Source of the DNA: an uncultured Acidimicrobiia bacterium
Lineage (GTDB): Bacteria; Actinomycetota; Acidimicrobiia; Spongiisociales; Spongiisociaceae
DNA: 64,000 bases
Reading direction: 5' to 3'
Assembly: GCA_958295745.1 (NCBI GenBank)
Contig: OY282370.1
Coordinates: 620,001-684,000, forward strand
A model generated the notes under the pieces. That model was not told the DNA's origin. It did not search any database and saw only the letters and a list, made by a program, of their open reading frames with translations. Positions 4,999 through 49,042 of this stretch are shown piece by piece (position 1 is the stretch's first letter; the number at the start of each line of letters is the position of its first letter). Both the position numbers and the translations under genes were made by a program.

Positions 4999-6174
4999 AT
5001 GCCCGATGTAGAACCTGTGGCCATCGTAGGGGCGGCCCGAACCGCCGTCGGAACGTACGGAGGCTCGCTGAGCCGCATCGAAGCCCACGAGCTGGGCGCC
5101 CTCACGATCGAGGAATCACTCCGCCGCGCCGGTGTCGGCGCCGACGAGGTGGACGAGGTGGTGATGGGCCAGATCGGGCAGGTGGGCGGGGACGCCTACA
5201 ACGCCCGGCGCTGCGCACTGGCGGCCGGCCTCCCCCCCACCGCCACCGCCATGAACGTCAACCGCCTCTGCTCGTCGGGCCTGCAGGCCATCATCACCGG
5301 CGCCCAGCAGGTCATGCTGGGAGAGGCGGACATCGTGGTGGCCGGCGGCAACGAGAGCATGAGCCGCCAGCCTTTCCTCGACTACCAGGCCCGCGACGGA
5401 TGGAAGCTGGGTCCCCGCAAGATCATCGACGGCACCCTGTCCCTGGTGACGGATCCTTTCGGCGGCTATCCCATGGGGGTAACGGCGGAGAAGGTGGCGG
5501 AACGCTACGGCGTCAGCCGCCCGGAACAGGACCGGTTCGCCGCCCGGAGCCAACACCTGGCCGCCGTCGCCATCAAGGAAGGCCACTTCGTGGAGGAGAT
5601 CGTCGGGGTGGAGCGCCCCAGGGAGGAACCCTTCCTGGTCGACGAGCACCCCAGGCCCAACGCAACGGAGGAGCGCCTGGCCCGGCTCCGGCCCGTATTC
5701 GTCGAGAACGGCACGGTGACCGCCGGCAACTCGTCGGGAATCAACGACGGGGCCGCCGCAGTGGTGCTGATGAGCGAGAGGATGGTCCGAGCCCGCGGCC
5801 TCACCCCCCGCCTGCGCCTGGCGGCCTGGGCGGTGTCGGGCATCGAACCCGAGGTGATGGGGTACGCCCCGGCCCTCGCCATCCCCGCCGTGCTCGACAA
5901 GGCGGGCCTCACCCTCGACGACATCGACCTGGTCGAGCTCAACGAGGCTTTTGCCGCCCAGGCGGTGGCGGTCATCCGCGACGCCGGACTGGACCCGGAG
6001 AAGACCAACGTGTCGGGCGGGGCCATCGCCCTGGGCCATCCGGTCGGGGCCACCGGGGCGATCCTCGCCATCAAGCTCCTGCACGCCCTCGAGCGGACAG
6101 GCGGGCGGCGCGGCATCGTGACGATGTGCATCGGAGGCGGACAGGGGATGGCCGCCGTCTTCGAGCGTCCTTGA
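4999..6174 (+). CDS. Thiolase family acetyl-CoA C-acyltransferase
   Basis: Thiolase of 391 residues, full length for the family. It has the nucleophilic Cys in NRLCSSG (about residue 91), the GHPVGATGA box with the catalytic His near 348, and the second Cys in CIGGGQG near 376. It either cleaves 3-ketoacyl-CoA or condenses acetyl-CoA units in the cytoplasm. An AAGGA ribosome-binding site sits about 7 bp before the ATG, and the 100-bp gap upstream suggests its own promoter. The stop overlaps a possible TTG start of the MoxR gene. Chain-length preference cannot be read from sequence. Confidence 0.9.
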   Translation: MPDVEPVAIVGAARTAVGTYGGSLSRIEAHELGALTIEESLRRAGVGADEVDEVVMGQIGQVGGDAYNARRCALAAGLPPTATAMNVNRLCSSGLQAIITGAQQVMLGEADIVVAGGNESMSRQPFLDYQARDGWKLGPRKIIDGTLSLVTDPFGGYPMGVTAEKVAERYGVSRPEQDRFAARSQHLAAVAIKEGHFVEEIVGVERPREEPFLVDEHPRPNATEERLARLRPVFVENGTVTAGNSSGINDGAAAVVLMSERMVRARGLTPRLRLAAWAVSGIEPEVMGYAPALAIPAVLDKAGLTLDDIDLVELNEAFAAQAVAVIRDAGLDPEKTNVSGGAIALGHPVGATGAILAIKLLHALERTGGRRGIVTMCIGGGQGMAAVFERP

Positions 6175-7091
6175 CCGGCGCCTCTCGACCCGCCCGCGGC
6201 GGAGGCGTCGGCGGCCGCATCGGGGGAATCGCCGGCATTACCAGGATGCTGGAAGGACAGGCCTATCTGGCCGACCGGGGCCTCTCCACCGCCCTGTACC
6301 TCTCCCTCACCCTGCCCCAGCCGCTCCTCCTGGAAGGCGAGGCCGGAGTCGGCAAGACCGAGGTTGCCAAGGCGCTGGCAGACGGGCTGGGGGTGGAGCT
6401 GGTCAGGCTCCAGTGCTACGAAGGAATCGACGCCAACCAGGCCCTCTACGAGTGGGACTACCCGCGCCAGCTGCTCTACCTGCGCCGGGCGGGCGAAGCA
6501 GACGGAGACGCGGGCGGCGGCGCCGCGGACGAGCTGTTCGCGGAGCGGTTCCTGGTGGAGCGGCCCCTGCTGAAGGCCCTGCGGCTGGGTTCCGGCTGCG
6601 TGCTGCTGATCGACGAGATCGACCGGGCCGACGACGAGTTCGAGGCTTTCCTGCTGGAGATACTCTCCGACTTCCAGATCTCCATCCCCGAGATCGGCAC
6701 CGTGGCGGCGCCCCGCCCTCCGGCGGTGATCGTCACCTCCAACCGCACCCGTGAGCTGCACGACGCCCTGAAGCGCCGCTGCCTGTACCACTGGATCGAC
6801 TTCCCCGGCCTGGAGCGGGAGATCGAGATCGTGGCCGCCCGAGCGCCCGAGGTGCCGGAGCGGCTGGCCCGCAGCACCGGCCGGGTGGTGTCGAACCTGC
6901 GCAGCCGCCTGGAACTGGTGAAGCAACCCGGGGTGGCGGAGACCATCAGCTGGTCCCGCGCCCTCCATCATCTCGGAGAGGAGCAGGTAACCCCGGACAA
7001 CTTCGACCTCGGTCTAGGCGCCGTCATCAAGGACCGCGACGACCTGACCGCTGTCCACCGCCGCATGGATGACATTTTGGATGGCGCCTGA
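6171..7091 (+). CDS. MoxR-family AAA ATPase (CoxD-like)
   Basis: AAA+ ATPase with Walker A GEAGVGKT (about residues 57-64) and Walker B LLIDEID (about 145-151). Segments such as LQCYEGIDANQALYEW are typical of CoxD-type MoxR chaperones that help sulfurate or insert the Mo/Cu cofactor of molybdenum hydroxylases. The start is uncertain. TTG at 6171 would overlap the thiolase stop (TTGA), like the other couplings here. ATG at 6246 would give a shorter protein lacking a few residues usually present before GQAYLAD. Its partner VWA protein lies downstream but is separated by an AT-rich insertion and a broken gene. Confidence 0.85.
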   Translation: MTGASRPARGGGVGGRIGGIAGITRMLEGQAYLADRGLSTALYLSLTLPQPLLLEGEAGVGKTEVAKALADGLGVELVRLQCYEGIDANQALYEWDYPRQLLYLRRAGEADGDAGGGAADELFAERFLVERPLLKALRLGSGCVLLIDEIDRADDEFEAFLLEILSDFQISIPEIGTVAAPRPPAVIVTSNRTRELHDALKRRCLYHWIDFPGLEREIEIVAARAPEVPERLARSTGRVVSNLRSRLELVKQPGVAETISWSRALHHLGEEQVTPDNFDLGLGAVIKDRDDLTAVHRRMDDILDGA

Positions 7092-7199
7092 CCTGGCCCG
7101 GGCCGCCGGGGCACACCGTCCAGGCGGACGAGAACCGGTTTGAAAATCTTTCTTGGAGTAGAAGAGGTAGAAGAAAACTAGCTAACCTACTAAAAGGTA

Positions 7200-7244
7200 A
7201 CCCTACGGCAAAGGGCCATAACAGGTTCGACTCCTGTGTAGGGT
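7200..7244 (+). ncRNA. tRNA-like acceptor/T-arm minihelix (no anticodon arm)
   Basis: ACCCTAC (7200-7206) pairs with GTAGGGT (7238-7244). Directly inside the 3' strand is a perfect T-arm: ACAGG (7221-7225), loop TTCGACT, CCTGT (7233-7237), matching the GGTTCGANTCC consensus of tRNA and tmRNA. The 14 nt between the acceptor 5' strand and the T-arm can form only a 3-bp GGC/GCC hairpin, so D and anticodon arms are absent. No CCA follows. It could be a tRNA-derived attachment site or remnant, or a tRNA-like cap on an RNA of the island. Confidence 0.45.
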
Positions 7245-7291
7245 ACGACTATAAGGATCAACCTTTAGCAAAAAGGAAAGGAAAGACTGCA

Positions 7292-7549
7292 ATGGGAATA
7301 CCAGCTGCAGGAAAACCCAGCCCATCTCCAAGACCGGTAGAAGGTAGGAACATGGTGGTTGGTAGCAATACCACTTGCTGCCCAAGACAGAAAGGAGATA
7401 CCGACCTTATAATATTGACAGTCGATAGCCAAGGCATAGTTAGGGTCGTTGAAAAGGATCCTAAGGGGCCGCAGATAGGAGTCATATATCTGAGGGCTCA
7501 GAAAGTTGACTCTTATGAAGAGGCTCTAGACTATTATACTAGCGACTAA
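7292..7549 (+). CDS. Small protein of AT-rich island, unrecognised
   Basis: An 85-residue reading frame preceded by AGGAAAGGAAAG 6-8 bp before the ATG, a strong ribosome-binding site. The product starts MGIPAAGKPSPSPRP, has a CC pair near residue 30, and ends with a segment that looks like a small beta/alpha fold (DLIILTVDSQGIVRVV, then an acidic helix and DYYTSD). I see no signal peptide or membrane segment and do not recognise the family. Codon use (AAA, ATA, AGG, CTA) is unlike the neighbours, which supports foreign origin. It lies 48 bp after the tRNA-like hairpin and may share its transcript. Confidence 0.5.
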   Translation: MGIPAAGKPSPSPRPVEGRNMVVGSNTTCCPRQKGDTDLIILTVDSQGIVRVVEKDPKGPQIGVIYLRAQKVDSYEEALDYYTSD

Positions 7550-7550
7550 A

Positions 7551-7700
7551 GACCTGGCGCTGCGCAACGGGCAGGTCGGCAGCAGGGTGCGGGGCACGGC
7601 TTACCTGCACCGGTCTCGGACCCCGCTGGAACAGGCCGATCTGTCGGTTCCCGCCCCGGCCGGATTCAGCTCGGAATGTGAAGGAATGTGCGGGATATAG
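7551..7700 (+). pseudogene. 3' remnant of an interrupted gene
   Basis: GC-rich sequence restarts abruptly after the island in an open frame of 49 codons (DLALRNGQVGSRVRG... ending SSECEGMCGI) that stops at TAG 7698-7700. It has native codon use but no start codon or ribosome-binding site. It reads like the C-terminus of a protein whose 5' part was lost when the AT-rich segment arrived. I do not recognise the parent protein. A short frame opening at ATG 7081, overlapping the end of the moxR gene, might be the lost 5' end, but it runs into a stop at the island edge. Confidence 0.5.
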
Positions 7701-7807
7701 ACGGTAGGAAAGAACCAAACCTACCGCATCCATCATGAACATCCCGCCGCAACAACGATCACCTCAGCGCGGGTTGAGGTATTGGATTAGATTTTACACT
7801 CCGGCCG

Positions 7808-8971
7808 ATGAGCTACTACGACACCGCACCTGACCCCCGCCCGGAGGTGGAGCTGGTCCGGTTCGGGCGTCTGCTGCGGGACCGGGGGGTGAACGTGGGG
7901 GCCGGGCAGGTGGTGTCCTACGCGAAGGCGGCGGCCTGCCTGGATCCGGCGGCTGTCGAGGATCTGTATTGGGCGGGGCGCATCACCCTGGTCAACCGCG
8001 CAGCGGATCTGGCCGTCTACGACGCCGCCTTCGACCACTTCTTCATCGGAACGGAGAGCGGCCCTCCCCCGCCCCGGCTGGCGGTGGCCGCCGCCGGCGG
8101 CGACACGAGCGGCTTGGAAGAGGTCTCGCTCGGCGGCGGCTACCAGGAGATCGGGGTGCTGGAGGCGGGGGACGACGATCTCCCGTCCGCCGGAGGCCCC
8201 AGGGCTTCGAGCGCCGAGATCCTGCGCACCAAGAACTTCGACCAATGGACCGAGGACGAGTTCCGGCGGCTGGCGCGGCTCCTCCCCGACCTCCGCCCGC
8301 CGCAGAGGCGAAGCCGCCGCACCCGCCCCTCGTCGAGGGGTCCGGGCATCGACCTGCGGAGCAGCGTCCGCGGCTCCCTGCGGTACGGGGGCGACCTGAT
8401 CCGGCTGCGAAGACGGCGCCGGGTGGAGCGGCCCCGTCCTGTGGTGCTGATCGTGGACGTGTCGGGGTCGATGGCCGGTTTCTCCCGGGCCTTGGTGCAG
8501 TTCTCATACGGGATGAGCCGCGCCTCCCGCCGGGTGGAGGTCTTCTGCTTCGGTACCCGCCTCACCCGCCTCACCGATGCCATGAGGGTGCGGGACCCCG
8601 ACTCGGCCCTCGACGAGGCGGCCGAACGGGTGGTGGACTGGGACGGGGGCACCAGGATCGGTGAATCGCTGGGCGCCTACGTGACCAGGTGGGGCAACTA
8701 CCGCTTCAACCGGGGTGCGGTGGTGATCATCTGCTCCGACGGCCTGGAGCGGGGCGAGCCGAAACAGCTGGCCCGGGCCATGCGGAGATTGTCCCGCCAA
8801 ACCCACGCCGTCGTCTGGGTGAACCCCCTGGCAGGCGATCCCAAGTTCCAACCCCTGGCCCGGGGGCTGGTGGCCGCCCTCCCCTACGTGGACCGGCTGA
8901 TAGCGGGCCACAATGTCATCAGCCTGGAAGAGCTGGCCAAGTCGGTAGCCGCCCTGGATCGACCGCTCTGA
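7808..8971 (+). CDS. VWA-domain protein (CoxE-like)
   Basis: A 387-residue protein. Its C-terminal von Willebrand A domain carries the MIDAS motif DVSGS near residues 217-221 and DGGTRIG near 280. The N-terminal RFGRLLRDRGVNVGAGQ segment is typical of CoxE/YehP-type proteins. CoxE works with the MoxR ATPase CoxD in maturing the active site of Mo hydroxylases. Its position downstream of set 1 and the MoxR gene supports that role here, although an insertion now separates the two. The middle region (about 85-140) is low-complexity and probably a linker. No clear Shine-Dalgarno precedes the ATG. Confidence 0.85.
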   Translation: MSYYDTAPDPRPEVELVRFGRLLRDRGVNVGAGQVVSYAKAAACLDPAAVEDLYWAGRITLVNRAADLAVYDAAFDHFFIGTESGPPPPRLAVAAAGGDTSGLEEVSLGGGYQEIGVLEAGDDDLPSAGGPRASSAEILRTKNFDQWTEDEFRRLARLLPDLRPPQRRSRRTRPSSRGPGIDLRSSVRGSLRYGGDLIRLRRRRRVERPRPVVLIVDVSGSMAGFSRALVQFSYGMSRASRRVEVFCFGTRLTRLTDAMRVRDPDSALDEAAERVVDWDGGTRIGESLGAYVTRWGNYRFNRGAVVIICSDGLERGEPKQLARAMRRLSRQTHAVVWVNPLAGDPKFQPLARGLVAALPYVDRLIAGHNVISLEELAKSVAALDRPL

Positions 8972-13404: not shown

Positions 13405-13422
13405 AACCGTTCATGGAGGCCC

Positions 13423-13505
13423 CCAGGGTACAAAACGTCCACCATCCAGGGTACAATTTGCCCCTCACCCAGGGTACAAAACGCCCCATCCCAACGGTAC
13501 AATCC
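13423..13505. repeat. Four 23-bp-spaced repeats upstream of the DUF4143 ATPase
   Basis: GGTAC cores start at 13427, 13450, 13473 and 13496, exactly 23 bp apart. The first three copies share CCAGGGTACAA; on the minus strand this reads TTGTACCCTGG. The last copy is degenerate (AACGGTACAATCC). The array begins about 20 bp before the start of the minus-strand ATPase gene, so it overlaps its promoter. Spacing of about two helical turns suggests cooperative binding of a regulator, or iterons. No spacer variability or cas genes, so not CRISPR. Confidence 0.8.
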
Positions 13506-15095: not shown

Positions 15096-15223
15096 CGGGA
15101 TGGAATATACCCCGAAGCAGGAGGGCCGCAGACCGGTAGGATGCGGGTGGACTCCGTATCGAGAAATCATCGAGGAACCGGCCGATCCGGACGTACATCT
15201 GTCAGCCGAGAAGCCGCCAGGAA

Positions 15224-15288
15224 GAACATCCGATGACAAAGAACATCCGATGACAAAGAACATCCGATGACGGAGAACATCCGATGAC
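15224..15288 (+). repeat. 17-bp tandem repeat (about four copies) creating coupled mini-ORFs
   Basis: GAACATCCGATGAC plus AAA/AAA/GGA spacers repeats at 15224, 15241, 15258 and 15275. Because 17 is not a multiple of 3, each ATG (15233, 15250, 15267) opens a six-codon frame (M-T-K/E-N-I-R) whose TGA overlaps the next ATG as ATGA. The last ATG, 15284, is the start of the LLM oxidoreductase gene. Confidence 0.9.
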
Positions 15289-16327
15289 TATGGGACGCGT
15301 GGGTATGTGCTTCCTCGACCGGCCCGGCCCCCGCCGCCAGGCAGCCCTCGCCCGTCGGATGGAGGAACTCGGCTACGAATCCGTCTGGGTGTGCGAGACT
15401 CGCACCGCCCGGGACGCCGTATCGGTGCTGGGCGCCGCCGCCTACGCCACCGACCGGATCAAATTGGGAACCGGGGTGGTCAACTCGTGGACCCGGCCTG
15501 CTTCGTTGATGGCTTTGACCTTCGCCACCCTCGACGAGCTGGCGCCGGGCCGGATGCTGCTCGGCGTCGGTGCTTACTGGGATCCCCTGGCCTGGAACCA
15601 GGGCATCCACCGGCGGAAACCCATCAAGCAGATGCGGGAGTACATAGAGGTGGTGCGGCGGCTCCTGGACATGGAGACGGTCACCTTCGAGGGGGAGCTG
15701 GTACAGGTCCGCGACCTGCGCCTGGATCTGGGGGAAGGGGTGGAGCGCATCCCGAAGCGGATACCTATATATATAGGGGCGACCGGGCCGCAGATGCTGG
15801 CCCTGTCCGGCGAGCTGGCCGACGGCGTGATGCTCAACGGTTTCACCTCCCTCACCTACCTGGCCGGCGCCCTGGAACAAATCGAGAAGGGGGCGAGGCG
15901 GGCAGGCAGGCGAATGGCGGACCTCGACCTGCCCCAGACCGTCGTAATCGCCATGGACGAGGACGAGGAGCGGGCGCTGGAGGCGGCCACCCGCATGACC
16001 GCCATGTACCTGGGGCAGCAGCCCCACATCGCCCTGGCGAGCGGCGTCGACCAGGACCTGCTGGACCGGGTGCGGGCGGCCATGGGAGGCTGGCCCCCCG
16101 TCGAGGGCGGCATCGAAGCGGCCATGCCCCTGGTTCCGGTAGAGGTGGTGCGGTCGCTCACCGCGGCCGGCACCCCGGAACAATGCCTGGAACAGGCGGC
16201 CGCCTACTCGATCCGCCCCAACATATACCCGGCGCTGCTCCCCATCACCGAGAACTACGAAGACATCATCGAGGTGTTCGCCCCCCGCCGCCGGCACACC
16301 ACGACCCTGGACTCAACTGCAGATTGA
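15284..16327 (+). CDS. LLM-class (luciferase-like) flavin/F420-dependent oxidoreductase
   Basis: A 347-residue TIM-barrel monooxygenase/oxidoreductase of the bacterial luciferase family. Family features are the N-terminal RVGMCFLDRPGPRRQAALAR strand-helix, LGTGVVNSWTRPASLMA, LGVGAYWDPLAW and IPIYIGATGPQML. Most actinobacterial members use coenzyme F420 and some use FMN; the sequence alone does not decide. The substrate is unknown. The initiation region is a 17-bp tandem array with overlapping leader mini-ORFs. A fragment nearly identical to its C-terminus (ENYEDIIEVFA) recurs at 17410-17445. Confidence 0.88.
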   Translation: MTMGRVGMCFLDRPGPRRQAALARRMEELGYESVWVCETRTARDAVSVLGAAAYATDRIKLGTGVVNSWTRPASLMALTFATLDELAPGRMLLGVGAYWDPLAWNQGIHRRKPIKQMREYIEVVRRLLDMETVTFEGELVQVRDLRLDLGEGVERIPKRIPIYIGATGPQMLALSGELADGVMLNGFTSLTYLAGALEQIEKGARRAGRRMADLDLPQTVVIAMDEDEERALEAATRMTAMYLGQQPHIALASGVDQDLLDRVRAAMGGWPPVEGGIEAAMPLVPVEVVRSLTAAGTPEQCLEQAAAYSIRPNIYPALLPITENYEDIIEVFAPRRRHTTTLDSTAD

Positions 16328-16385
16328 CCGACAGGCCGGACGTGATAGTCGTAGGATTGTCGTACACCGACCGTACCCTGAGGTG

Positions 16386-16784
16386 ATGAGGGAGATATAT
16401 CTCGACTACAACGGGTCGGCTCCGGTCGACCCTCGGGTTGCCGGGGCGGTCGCCGAGGCAATGGCGTGGGGTGTGGGCAACGCTTCTTCTGTTCATCGAT
16501 TCGGACGGCGGCAGGCAGCATCGGTGGATCTGGCTCGTGAGCAGGCGGCGTCACTGGTGGGCGGCCGTCCGGCTGATGTGGTGTTCACGGCGGGGGCGAC
16601 CGAGGCGAACAACCTGGCGTTGTGCGGAGCGGTCTTGGGGGCGGTTCCGCAGCGGTCGAGGATTCTCATCTCTGCCGTGGAACATGCTTCGGTGCGGCAG
16701 GCGGCTTGGTGGCTGAGGGATCATGGATTGGCAAAGGTGGATGTGGTGCCGGTGACGGAGGGCGGGTTCGTAGATCCGGATGAG
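16386..16784 (+). pseudogene. Truncated cysteine desulfurase (5' fragment)
   Basis: An open frame of about 133 codons starts MREIYLDYNGSAPVDPR and matches the N-terminal third of IscS/NifS/DndA-type cysteine desulfurases (GNASSVHRFGRR, FTAGATEANNLAL, SAVEHASV). It stops matching after FVDPDE at about 16784, where AT-rich DNA begins. The PLP lysine and catalytic cysteine are therefore missing and it cannot be active. Codon use has more T-ending codons than the neighbours, hinting that the parent gene was itself acquired. Stand-alone cysteine desulfurases also occur in phosphorothioation (dnd) defence clusters, but nothing else of such a cluster is here. Confidence 0.8.
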
Positions 16785-16786
16785 GG

Positions 16787-17284
16787 GTGGAGATGTGGAG
16801 CGGCGGCTTGACTCCTATAGAAACATCTGAAAAGTTACTGGTAATGGCCATCGGGTTGCCTCAAAAGGATGAAGACCCTGAAATGGTATCCTTCTGGTTC
16901 CCACGTAGTCCTGTTCCGGAAAATGCATACCGTATTTATTCTGAACCACCTACTCAATTCTTGAAAGAGGCGGACCGGTTGTTGTTGTCTGACATTGTAC
17001 TCTTAGATCTACCTTCCGATTTATCAGAAGAAGCCTTTCGATTTGAAATCTGTAATATTCTTGAAGAAATACCTCTTGCTAAAGCAATGCTCGATGCGAA
17101 ATTTGATATCAATCTTACTCATGCAGATGCATTTCCCATTCTTAGGTTATTGGCAACAGAGGAGATTTCAACGAATGATCTTTGGCGTGCCTTCGTCAAC
17201 TGGATGGTGTTTTTCTTTCCTAATCAAGTAATGCGTCAAGAGATTACTGAGATAGCCCTTCGGCGCGCCCAAGTGATAGGATAA
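16787..17284 (+). CDS. Unrecognised protein of second AT-rich island
   Basis: An open frame of 165 codons in DNA much poorer in GC than the rest. The first residues (MEMWSGG) come from the junction with the broken cysteine desulfurase; the original start may be ATG 16844 (MAIGLPQKDEDPEM). The product has a mainly helical acidic C-terminal half with a hydrophobic stretch (FVNWMVFFFPNQ) and no signal peptide. I recognise no domain. The long frame with AT-biased codons argues for a real foreign gene, possibly 5'-truncated. It sits directly beside a remnant gene, as the first island does. Confidence 0.5.
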   Translation: MEMWSGGLTPIETSEKLLVMAIGLPQKDEDPEMVSFWFPRSPVPENAYRIYSEPPTQFLKEADRLLLSDIVLLDLPSDLSEEAFRFEICNILEEIPLAKAMLDAKFDINLTHADAFPILRLLATEEISTNDLWRAFVNWMVFFFPNQVMRQEITEIALRRAQVIG

Positions 17285-17291
17285 GGGGGTT

Positions 17292-17465
17292 ATGGCGGCG
17301 CACCAGGAGCAAGCGCGGGGAACTGCGGAACCCAGCCTGAATCTGAAACGTACCGAGTTCACGGTAGTTCATGGGGGATTCGGTCCAACCCCGGTGTTGC
17401 TCCCGATCGCCGAGAACTACGAAGACATCATCGAGGTGTTCGCCCGTGAGCCCCCTAGTTATTAA
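17292..17465 (+). CDS. Chimeric 57-codon ORF made from neighbouring gene fragments
   Basis: ATG 17292 is preceded by AAGGGGG and opens a 57-codon frame ending TAA 17463-17465. Bases 17364-17387 are identical to 17751-17774 (inside the SDR gene, antisense to it). Bases 17410-17445 are identical to 16248-16283 (the end of the LLM gene) and in the same frame, giving PIAENYEDIIEVFA. The first 24 codons match nothing I can see nearby. It is more likely a product of repair or rearrangement than a functional gene, though it could be expressed. Confidence 0.4.
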   Translation: MAAHQEQARGTAEPSLNLKRTEFTVVHGGFGPTPVLLPIAENYEDIIEVFAREPPSY

Positions 17466-17570: not shown

Positions 17571-18350
17571 TCAGACGGCCAGCCAGCCGCCGTCTACCAG
17601 GAGGGTCTCGCCGGTGATGTAGCCGGCGGTGGATCCGGCCAGGAACAGCACCGCGTCGGCTATTTCGGAGGGGACGCCGAACCGCTTCAGCAGGGTCTGG
17701 TCCCGTATCTCCTCGAACAGATCCCGGTTGGAGGGGTCGGTGCGCAGCTCGTAGTTCATGGGGGATTCGGTCCAGCCCGGCGCCACGGCATTGGCGCGGA
17801 TGCCGAACTCCGCCCACTCCACCGCCATGACCTTGGTGAGGGCGATCACCCCCGCCTTGGCGGCCGTGTAGGCGCCGATGCGGGCGAAGCCCACCGGACC
17901 GGCTATGGAGGCGACGTTGACGATAGAACTGCGCCCCCGGGCCATCATCCAGGGAACCGCCGCCCTCGACACGTAGAAAACCGACGACAGGTTGGATTCC
18001 ACCGCCCGCCGCCATTCCTCGATGTCCAACCGATCCAGCCGAGCGAAGTTCTGGCGGCCTCCTGCGTTGTTGACCAGAATGTCTATCCGGCCCTTGGAGA
18101 AGTGGATCACGCTCTCCATGGCCGAAGATATCTCATCGGGGTCGGTAACGTCGCAGGGCCGGGCCAGGTGCCGGCCTCGACCGCCTCCTTCCGATTCCAT
18201 CATCTCCACCGTCTGCCGAAGATCCTCCTCGGTTCGGGCCAGGGCGGCCACTCGAGCGCCTTCCCGGGCGAACGCCATGGCGATCTCCCGCCCGATGCCG
18301 CGGCTGGCCCCCGTGACCACCGCCACCTTGTCTTCGAGGCCCAGTTCCAT
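17571..18350 (-). CDS. SDR-family NAD(P)-dependent oxidoreductase
   Basis: A 259-residue classical short-chain dehydrogenase. It has TGASRGIG at 13-20 (cofactor glycine motif), NNAG near 95, the catalytic YxxxK as YTAAK near 162, and the C-terminal GYITGETLLVDGGW. The fold resembles FabG and glucose-1-dehydrogenase-like enzymes. It reduces a carbonyl or oxidises an alcohol on an unknown substrate. It is the last gene of the minus-strand run coxMSL2-hydA-amidase-SDR, 49 bp after the amidase gene, so it may act on a product of the same pathway. Confidence 0.88.
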   Translation of the reverse strand: MELGLEDKVAVVTGASRGIGREIAMAFAREGARVAALARTEEDLRQTVEMMESEGGGRGRHLARPCDVTDPDEISSAMESVIHFSKGRIDILVNNAGGRQNFARLDRLDIEEWRRAVESNLSSVFYVSRAAVPWMMARGRSSIVNVASIAGPVGFARIGAYTAAKAGVIALTKVMAVEWAEFGIRANAVAPGWTESPMNYELRTDPSNRDLFEEIRDQTLLKRFGVPSEIADAVLFLAGSTAGYITGETLLVDGGWLAV

Positions 18351-38199: not shown

Positions 38200-39591
38200 C
38201 TACTCCCCCGTCCAAGCCTTCCAAACCCGGATCGCCTCCGAGATCCGACCCTCGGTGGAATCCAGATACTGCGCCGCCAGACCGATTACCTCTTCGTCGG
38301 GCGGCACCCCCCCCTCCGGGTCGATAAGACCGGCCCGGTATCTCGTGTACGCCTGATACAGCTCCACCTGGTCCCGGGTGGGAAGGGTCGACCAGTCCTT
38401 CTCGACGGTGCGGTCCACCGACTGGTGGTTGGAATAATCCCCTACCCCCGCTTCGCTGGCCCGGTCCCAAACGCCGTAGGGGGCGTCGGTCCAGGTACCG
38501 AGGGTCGGAGTCGGCTCTTCGGCATAGTGCACGAAGTGCAAGAGGAGCGCCTGGTAATCCCGGGAGAGACGGTATTCGGCGGCCAGCCGATTACCGAGCC
38601 GGGCCAGCTGTTCCTTGGTGGCCCCGGAGTCGACCGACACGGTAAGCCATATACGCTTCGCCCCCGCAGTGCTCTGGTCTTCTTCGCTCAAGACCCGATA
38701 GCCCACCCCGGCCGGCGGGGGAACCGTCGACGGCGGTGCGGTGGTAGTGGTGGCCTCCGCCTCCGTAGTGGTGGTAGTGGCCTCCGCCTCCGTGGTGGTA
38801 GTGGTGGCCTCCGCCTCCGTGGTGGTGGTTGTCGCCGCCGCCTCCGTAGTGGTGGTAGTCGCCGCCGCCGTAGTAGTAGTGGTGGTCGTGGACGCCTCCG
38901 TGGTAGTGGTAGTCGCCGCCGCCGTAGTAGTAGTGGTGGTGGTTATGCCGGACCCCAAGCCGATTATCTCCACCACCCGGCCTACCGCCCCTTCGAAACG
39001 CCCGAACGCCTCTATGAACTCCGCCAGCGCGGCGCGGCGCCGACTGCCGTCGTCGGAGGAGCGCAGTCCGGTCAGCGCGTCCCGGGCGGCGTCCGCCATC
39101 TGGCCTGCCGCCATCCACGCGGTGCGGTGCTCTACCGGCAACCCCCGATCCGCGGGCGGGTCGATGAACCCGACGGTATCGCGCAGGTCCTGCGCCCTCG
39201 ACAGCAAGCCCGACATCTTCTCTTCGGTAGCCCCATAGCTGACCCCGGTAACGGACCGGTTGTCCCAATCGTTGTTGGCCGACCTCATATCCGCCACCAG
39301 GTCGGAGATGGCGGCGTAGGCGGCGCTCAGCTCGTCGTAGTAGGCCAGCACCTCCCGGGTCGGGAAGGTGGTGGTGGTGACCGCCGCGGTGGTGTCGGGG
39401 GCGGCGGCGGCTTCGGTGGTAGGGGTCGACGTTGGGCCGGTAGTCACGGCCGGCGCGGTTACCTCGACAGTCGACTCCGGGGGCGTTTCCTCGGCGTCGC
39501 GCGAGCAGGACGCGGTAAGAAGAACCACCGCCAAGCCCAAGAGAAAAACCCTCTTGAGGCCGGTTCCATGTGAAAGATACTTGCTGATCAC
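38200..39591 (-). CDS. Lipoprotein with long Thr-rich linker, function unknown
   Basis: About 463 residues. A lipoprotein signal (LKRVFLLGLAVVLLTASC) ends in lipobox LTAS-C. A Thr/Ala/Pro linker and a helical domain follow (YYDELSAAYAAISDLVADM). A second linker consists of runs of TTTTT separated by EAEA or AAA (38738-38946), before a C-terminal domain rich in Trp and Tyr that I do not recognise. It would sit on the outer face of the membrane with linkers spanning the wall. GTG 39591 is the best start; it lies in the second copy of a 21-bp duplication, and the first copy would add seven residues. Confidence 0.7.
   Translation of the reverse strand: MISKYLSHGTGLKRVFLLGLAVVLLTASCSRDAEETPPESTVEVTAPAVTTGPTSTPTTEAAAAPDTTAAVTTTTFPTREVLAYYDELSAAYAAISDLVADMRSANNDWDNRSVTGVSYGATEEKMSGLLSRAQDLRDTVGFIDPPADRGLPVEHRTAWMAAGQMADAARDALTGLRSSDDGSRRRAALAEFIEAFGRFEGAVGRVVEIIGLGSGITTTTTTTAAATTTTTEASTTTTTTTAAATTTTTEAAATTTTTEAEATTTTTEAEATTTTTEAEATTTTAPPSTVPPPAGVGYRVLSEEDQSTAGAKRIWLTVSVDSGATKEQLARLGNRLAAEYRLSRDYQALLLHFVHYAEEPTPTLGTWTDAPYGVWDRASEAGVGDYSNHQSVDRTVEKDWSTLPTRDQVELYQAYTRYRAGLIDPEGGVPPDEEVIGLAAQYLDSTEGRISEAIRVWKAWTGE
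38738..38946. repeat. Low-complexity repeat encoding Thr-rich linker
   Basis: Imperfect units of about 27-30 bp (GTGGTGGTAGTGGCCTCC-like on the plus strand) encode TTTTT-EAEA/TTTTT-AAA on the minus strand. In-frame unit number can change by slippage or recombination, altering linker length. Confidence 0.85.
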
Positions 39592-47948: not shown

Positions 47949-47997
47949 GGGAACTGTCAGAGGGCCGGTTTCTCCGGTAACGCAGGAACAGGTCGGG

Positions 47998-48198
47998 TCA
48001 GCTGAGGTACTTGAGAACCGACTGCGGCACCGGCTTTCCCGCCCGGCGAACGTTCTCCCAGTATTCACGTTCCATCTCCGCCTGCAAATCGGCGAACTCG
48101 CCCGCGTCCAACCGGCGGGAGAGCTCTATCAGCTCTTCGTCCGGGGTTTCCCCAGGCCAACGCGGATACTCAATCGGATATTCAGGCCTCACCGTCAT
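47998..48198 (-). CDS. Small tandem paralog 1 (antitoxin-like candidate)
   Basis: A 66-residue acidic protein with the array consensus EYPRWPGETPDEELIELS, AGEFADLQ and YWENVRRAGKPVPQ, ending KYLS. GAGGGA lies just before AATATG. It is the last of four tandem copies that follow a BrnT-like toxin candidate. The conserved WPGETPDEEL and Arg-rich helix are not a domain I know. A role as a toxin-neutralising partner is inferred only from order and size. Confidence 0.6.
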   Translation of the reverse strand: MTVRPEYPIEYPRWPGETPDEELIELSRRLDAGEFADLQAEMEREYWENVRRAGKPVPQSVLKYLS

Positions 48199-48258
48199 AT
48201 TCCCTCGCGCTCAAGGAGATCTGGCACACACACCACCCCGTGATCCCGGCAGATTGGG

Positions 48259-48462
48259 TCAGCTGAGGTACTTGAGAGCCGACTGCGGTACCGGCTCCCC
48301 GGCCCGGCGAACGTTCTCCCAGTATCTACGACTCAACCTTGCTTGCACATCGGCGAATTCGCCTGCGACTATCCTGTCGGAGAGTTCCATCAGCTCCTCA
48401 TCAGGGGTTTCCCCAGGCCAACGCGGATACTCAACCGGATATTCTTCCTGTCTCTCAACCAT
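48259..48462 (-). CDS. Small tandem paralog 2 (antitoxin-like candidate)
   Basis: A 67-residue protein (MVERQEEYPVEYPRWPGE start) with ELMELSDRIVAGEFAD in the middle and VPQSALKYLS at the end. The start at 48462 aligns with the other copies and has AAGGA just upstream; the open frame extends eight codons further. Its 5' third and leader are nearly identical to copy 3, while its middle is nearly identical to copy 4, indicating exchange between copies. Confidence 0.6.
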   Translation of the reverse strand: MVERQEEYPVEYPRWPGETPDEELMELSDRIVAGEFADVQARLSRRYWENVRRAGEPVPQSALKYLS

Positions 48463-48537
48463 ATTCCTTGCCTTCAAGAAGGGCAACGGTGCGAAAACAC
48501 AATCATCCCACGCGTTACCGGCCTAAGGCAGGTCAGG

Positions 48538-48741
48538 TCAGCTGATGAGCTCGAGAGCCCACTGCGGCACCGGCTTCCCCGCCCGGCGAACGTTCTCCCA
48601 GTATTCACGTTCCATCTCCGCCTGGAAATCGGCGAACTCGCCCGCGACAAGCCTACGGGAGAGCTCTATCAGCTCCTCATCCGGAGTCTCCCCAGGCCAA
48701 CGCGGATACTCAACCGGATATTCTTCCTGTCGCTAAGCCAT
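48538..48741 (-). pseudogene. Small tandem paralog 3, nonsense codon at position 3
   Basis: The copy reads ATG GCT TAG CGA CAG GAA GAA; copy 2 has GAG at the position of the TAG. The rest of the frame is intact to the TGA at 48538-48540 and encodes the full conserved protein (EYPRWPGE, ELIELSRRLVAGEFAD, YWENVRRAGKPVPQ). No replacement start lies before the middle of the gene. Its 5' end matches copy 2 and its 3' half matches copy 1. The copy is probably silent but could serve as a recombination donor. Confidence 0.75.
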
Positions 48742-48817
48742 ACTTCCTTGCCTTCAAGGGATATAGATGCGGAAACACATCATCCGTATCCGTGTTTCCG
48801 GCCTACGGCATGTCAGG

Positions 48818-49018
48818 TCAGCTGAGGTACTTGTGAGCCCACGTCGGCAACGGCTCCCCCGCTCTACGGAGGTTCTCGCAGTGTCTACGTCGCGACCTTG
48901 CCTGCCAATCAGCGAATTCGCCTGCGACTATCCTGTCGGAGAGTTCCATCAGCTCTTCGTCCGGGGTTTCCCCAGGCCAACGCGGATAATCTATCGGGTA
49001 TTCGGGCCTCTCGGTCAT
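48818..49018 (-). CDS. Small tandem paralog 4 (antitoxin-like candidate)
   Basis: A 66-residue product (MTERPEYPIDYPRWPGE) with the ELMELSDRIVAGEFAD middle of copy 2 and the most diverged C-terminus (HCENLRRAGEPLPTWAHKYLS). ATG 49018 aligns with the other copies; a GTG three codons earlier is possible. It starts 24 bp after the stop of the BrnT-like gene, so it is its immediate partner if this is a toxin-antitoxin operon. Confidence 0.6.
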   Translation of the reverse strand: MTERPEYPIDYPRWPGETPDEELMELSDRIVAGEFADWQARSRRRHCENLRRAGEPLPTWAHKYLS

Positions 49019-49042
49019 ATTCTTCACGATAGCACATGCTCA

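Follow-up and report, generated by a model that had tools for sequence, protein, structure and literature searches.

In the 64,000-nt stretch of DNA that was analysed (the window; 66.9% GC), a coxD-type and a coxE-type gene are separated by a patchwork insertion of about 0.74 kb, which probably brought in a horizontally acquired AT-rich core by illegitimate end joining and whose tRNA-like minihelix and small open reading frame (ORF) have no known role. The best reading of this island is that it represents ordinary horizontally acquired debris, with the tRNA-like hairpin as an eye-catching, unsupported feature. The island with its hairpin and its small ORF had been described in a sequence-only reading, and both its coordinates and the pairing were confirmed (Table 1). 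A literature search retrieved nothing directly bearing on this coxD/coxE locus.

Table 1. Features of the coxD/coxE locus (positions in the window).
Feature	Position	Strand	Basis and remarks
coxD-type AAA (MoxR-like) ATPase gene, native	5400..7091	+	Pfam AAA_5, E 7.7e-14
Direct repeat, left copy, GCGCCTGACC, 10 bp	7084..7093	+	Within the old coxE start (ATG at 7081)
Inserted sequence, in no relative	7094..7825	.	Flank comparison; single copy in own genome
AT-rich core, 413 bp, 44.8% GC	7137..7549	+	Between the coxD-type and coxE-type genes
tRNA-like minihelix	7200..7244	+	Predicted minimum free energy (MFE) fold; dominates the ensemble
Orphan 85-codon ORF	7292..7549	+	ORF call; plausible ribosome-binding site at about 7274-7285
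coxE-type VWA protein gene, native	7808..8971	+	Pfam VWA_CoxE, E 6.7e-57
Direct repeat, right copy, GCACCTGACC	7826..7835	+	Within the present coxE frame

Eleven other loci from the same family have a coxD stop that overlaps or abuts the coxE start; the segment is therefore a lineage-specific insertion, which makes the distance between the two genes 742 bp greater than in the family relatives. It had been proposed that the island splits the CoxD/CoxE-type gene pair, and the 11 related loci bear this out; the AT-rich part is present as described, but the insertion comprises 742 bp and not 410. For the flanking genes themselves, identity is about 66-76% for coxD in relatives that also carry coxE and 74-77% for coxE in relatives. 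At one relative locus, L009 (G010:C45, positions 1-1505), coxD matched in one frame with residues 83-458 and in another with residues 437-563, a sign of a possible frameshift or assembly error in that genome.

The empty site allowed the arrangement before the insertion to be reconstructed, in which the coxD stop overlapped the coxE start. When the flanks were joined at the repeat, the coxE start MAPDPRPEVELVRF was obtained, which is equal in length to MGPEPGPTTELVRF at the relative locus L012 and to MESEPGPTTELVRF in relatives. Restoration of a start of identical length by excision at the repeat argues for an end-joined scrap of DNA, and it places the limits of the insertion within the repeat. 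The initial six codons of the present coxE (MSYYDT) are derived from the insert. The two copies of the 10-bp repeat differ by one mismatch, and a 9-of-10 match was found between random stretches of 35-40 bp in about 6% of trials, so that the repeat alone is a weak sign of a duplication. The case is strengthened by the register of the repeat with the empty site, and as a duplication the repeat is suggestive only.

The composition of the insert is foreign and mosaic, with 79% GC at 7094-7136, 45% at 7137-7549, 68% at 7550-7690 and 52% at 7691-7825. No second copy was found elsewhere in the genome, no DNA related to the island in 59 relatives, and no copy of the insert in the class genomes, viral contigs, phages or plasmids that were searched; the region 7137-7300 gave only two matches of 20-27 bases in 395 genomes of the class, which is chance level. 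The segment was thus recovered at no other locus and in no related genome of any collection searched. Terminal inverted repeats were not found in the insert, the ends of which share 7 of 30 identities, and neither was a transposase or an integrase. Together with the empty site in relatives and the foreign composition, the following course is proposed. The AT-rich core would have come from a donor of lower GC content by horizontal transfer, and illegitimate end joining at a staggered break, located where coxD and coxE overlapped, would have admitted it. Repair of the stagger by fill-in would have generated the 10-bp direct repeat and left the insert directly behind the initial coxE codons.

The sequence-only reading had offered another course, namely that the tRNA-like hairpin serves as an attachment or processing signal for the island, which would be a minimal mobile element. 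The flanking 10-bp direct repeat and the clean empty site in relatives would fit such an element. However, the segment exists as a single copy that lacks terminal inverted repeats and a recombinase, a second site was absent from the searched genomes, and the hairpin is internal, starting 106 bp from the left end of the insert and lying at no boundary, and a mobile element is thus very unlikely.

The genome that harbours this insertion contains many more AT-rich islands. They were counted in an even sample of this genome amounting to 400 kb (G000:C1, stretches L060-L079), and about 20 were found. Five of the 10 proteins scanned from larger islands matched families of the restriction or abortive-infection type. 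The island proteins included a Thoeris ThsB-like TIR protein (L060), an Eco57I-type methylase together with HEPN_AbiU2 (L063), a ResIII helicase (L067) and an AbiEii-type AAA protein (L068). Because islands are common and several carry defence-type genes, the uptake of AT-rich DNA is routine in this genome, and the coxD/coxE island is a small, undistinguished example. It resembles AT-rich islands of GC-rich bacteria, of which this genome holds many others, in its low GC content, foreign codon use, absence from relatives and position at a gene border; unlike the usual islands, it is very short, has no recognisable gene and is a mosaic of AT-rich and GC-rich parts.

A second AT-rich island lies within the window at 16383-17465. 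It contains a truncated cysteine-desulfurase-like gene (N-terminus of Aminotran_5), which runs into an orphan AT-rich ORF of 165 codons (16787-17284) and behind which short duplicates of the two flanking genes are found: the segment 17390-17445 copies 16228-16283 at 93%, and a stretch at about 17364-17395 is similar to 17752-17783. This arrangement suggests a tandem duplication with inserted foreign DNA. Further repeats in the window comprise a direct repeat of about 216 bp that is present four times at 47987-49022, with 77-82% identity to a reference copy and a spacing of 261-280 bp, three copies of a short tandem repeat with the motif CCAGGGTACAA spaced 23 bp at 13422-13503, three copies of AAGAACATCCGATGAC spaced 17 bp at 15222-15288, and a repeat with a 27-bp period and seven overlapping GTGGTGGTAGTGGCC-like copies at 38714-38967.

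The ORF begins 48 bp past the minihelix. Its GC content at third codon positions (GC3) is 0.41, compared with 0.81 for three neighbouring genes, in agreement with the foreign codon use that had been noted earlier. A very strong ribosome-binding site had also been attributed to it; the ORF is indeed there, with the upstream sequence AGGAAAGGAAAG as a plausible site. What had been overlooked is that its frame is uninterrupted back to a stop at 7070, in total 158 codons, and that this one frame is open throughout the AT-rich core (136 codons from 7139, with no ATG, GTG or TTG before 7292). An open run of at least 135 codons in any of the six frames occurred in two of 3000 dinucleotide shuffles of the island; given the 85-codon ORF, it is only slightly unexpected that 51 more codons are open, with an estimated chance of about 0.07-0.1. 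The rarity of the 136-codon run and the plausible ribosome-binding site, which a scrap of DNA does not need, count against the end-joined scrap.

The open frame raises the possibility that the AT-rich core in its entirety encodes the C-terminal part of a foreign protein whose gene was cut near 7137, and that the minihelix is coding sequence which folds by chance. Beside the open frame through the entire core, a period-3 signal at the 5% margin over the whole island would agree with this, but the signal was absent from the upstream 51 codons. In a codon model for which AT-rich genes of this genome (6799 codons) served as training data, these codons scored -0.112, like shuffled sequence (median -0.115 at that length, as against 0.031 for true genes), while the 85-codon ORF was borderline, between genes and shuffled sequence, with a score of -0.021. 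Neither the upstream 51 codons nor the minihelix looks coding. Homologues of the product were also lacking. The protein search that had been suggested for the 85-residue product gave no match in Pfam, PHROGs, NCBIfam or PADLOC, the 136-codon frame gave none in the PDB, and both frames yielded only chance-level matches against phages, plasmids, viral contigs, genome contigs and the 395 class genomes. Matches in tblastn with E values of about 0.003-0.01 were spurious, being antisense, interrupted by stops or of native composition, and the best protein match, on a Halorubrum plasmid (E 3e-3), lay nearly in full on the antisense strand of an annotated hydrolase gene. A single-sequence structure model of the 136-residue frame reached a pLDDT of 36.7 and was unusable. 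A truncated gene is thus a tentative reading, which we hold to be doubtful, and it is compatible with the favoured patchwork insertion, under which the 85-codon ORF may be an orphan ORF or a fragment and perhaps non-functional.

The minihelix consists of an acceptor-like outer stem of 7 bp, in which ACCCTAC (7200-7206) pairs with GTAGGGT (7238-7244), and a T-arm-like inner stem of 5 bp, in which ACAGG (7221-7225) pairs with CCTGT (7233-7237) and closes the loop TTCGACT. A 3-bp GGC/GCC mini-arm is found where the D and anticodon arms would be. The predicted MFE is -19.6 kcal/mol, with two of 200 shuffles equal or better (z -2.9), and the pair probabilities in the ensemble are 0.93-0.999; the z-score drops to -1.4 with 81 nt of context. 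An alternative D-armless tRNA fold was far less stable (-12.8 versus -19.6 to -22.8 kcal/mol). Because the open frame of the 85-codon ORF extends upstream as far as the stop at 7070, it encloses the minihelix.

The rarity of the fold was estimated analytically for 64 kb and both strands. The strict pattern was an all-Watson-Crick helix of 7+5 bp with a loop that reads TTCRANY and a gap no longer than 20-40 nt. Its expected number is 1e-4 to 4e-4, or 0.008-0.04 when G-U pairs are allowed, and both figures are uncorrected for the many other patterns that might have been noticed. A pattern scan of the window and the 400 kb from the same genome revealed one further case, which has G-U pairs, and the all-Watson-Crick case was unique in 464 kb. 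Such a low chance expectation per window counts against the reading as a scrap, in which the hairpin may have arisen by chance or may derive from a tRNA gene that has decayed, and in which both the hairpin and the ORF would be without function.

The latter option can be worded more specifically: the minihelix would be what is left of a real tRNA gene, e.g., from a phage, after loss of the D and anticodon arms, and the ORF would be a small gene of the same donor. The T-arm has a TTCRANY loop that fits the consensus exactly and is stacked on a perfect 7-bp acceptor stem, and in phage DNA tRNA genes are often found beside small ORFs. In addition, the permissive metazoan mitochondrial mode of ARAGORN drew a complete cloverleaf for Ala (GGC) at 7176-7246, in which the D and anticodon stems have 4 bp. 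However, this mode also made a tRNA call for 16 of 400 shuffled islands, and the cloverleaf lacks T33 and the D-loop GG and fails in two acceptor pairs. The default mode of ARAGORN gave no tRNA or tmRNA call in the window, -ps80 gave no tRNA call on the island, and -m detected no tmRNA. The comparison with RNA models that had been proposed as a check of the fold was negative as well, with no tRNA or tmRNA match from Rfam in the window and no match to any RNA family around the island even at E 10. Neither the 25-base 3' half ACAGGTTCGACTCCTGTGTAGGGTA nor the strict minihelix occurred in any viral contig, and the T-arm/acceptor part had no other site within two mismatches in the genome. Matches to T5-like phage DNA (E 2-6) covered the T-arm region only. 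A decayed tRNA is a possible source of the hairpin, which one chosen pattern among many does not establish; as a full account of minihelix and ORF it appears rather unlikely. It is a more specific version of the favoured explanation and compatible with the insertion of a scrap.

The minihelix resembles the top half of a tRNA in its stacked 7-bp and 5-bp stems and its TTCRANY loop, but unlike a tRNA it lacks D and anticodon arms as well as an encoded CCA, is embedded in an open frame and has no conserved relatives. Bacterial Y RNA (YrlA) contains a tRNA-like module and is thus an example of a tRNA-like fold in a non-tRNA context, to which the minihelix can be likened; it differs in being a single hairpin without an Rfam match, in a genome (97% complete) in which no gene for TROVE/Ro60 (Rsr, PF05731) was found. 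The earlier suggestion of an RNA with a tRNA-like cap and a protein partner, the RNA being, e.g., a tRNA mimic of the Y-RNA kind, draws on the shape of the hairpin; no homologue pairs the two parts, and with neither an RNA family match nor a Ro60/Rsr gene we consider it highly improbable. A stand-alone RNA resembling a tRNA top half, which would be transcribed and processed, with RNase P and the CCA-adding enzyme as examples of the enzymes involved, and would act with or regulate the 85-residue protein, is barely credible.

A functional pair of a tRNA-half RNA and a protein would be important if it were true, but no support for it was found here. As debris of horizontal transfer, the island matters little beyond the observation that small foreign pieces of DNA can separate a tightly coupled gene pair.
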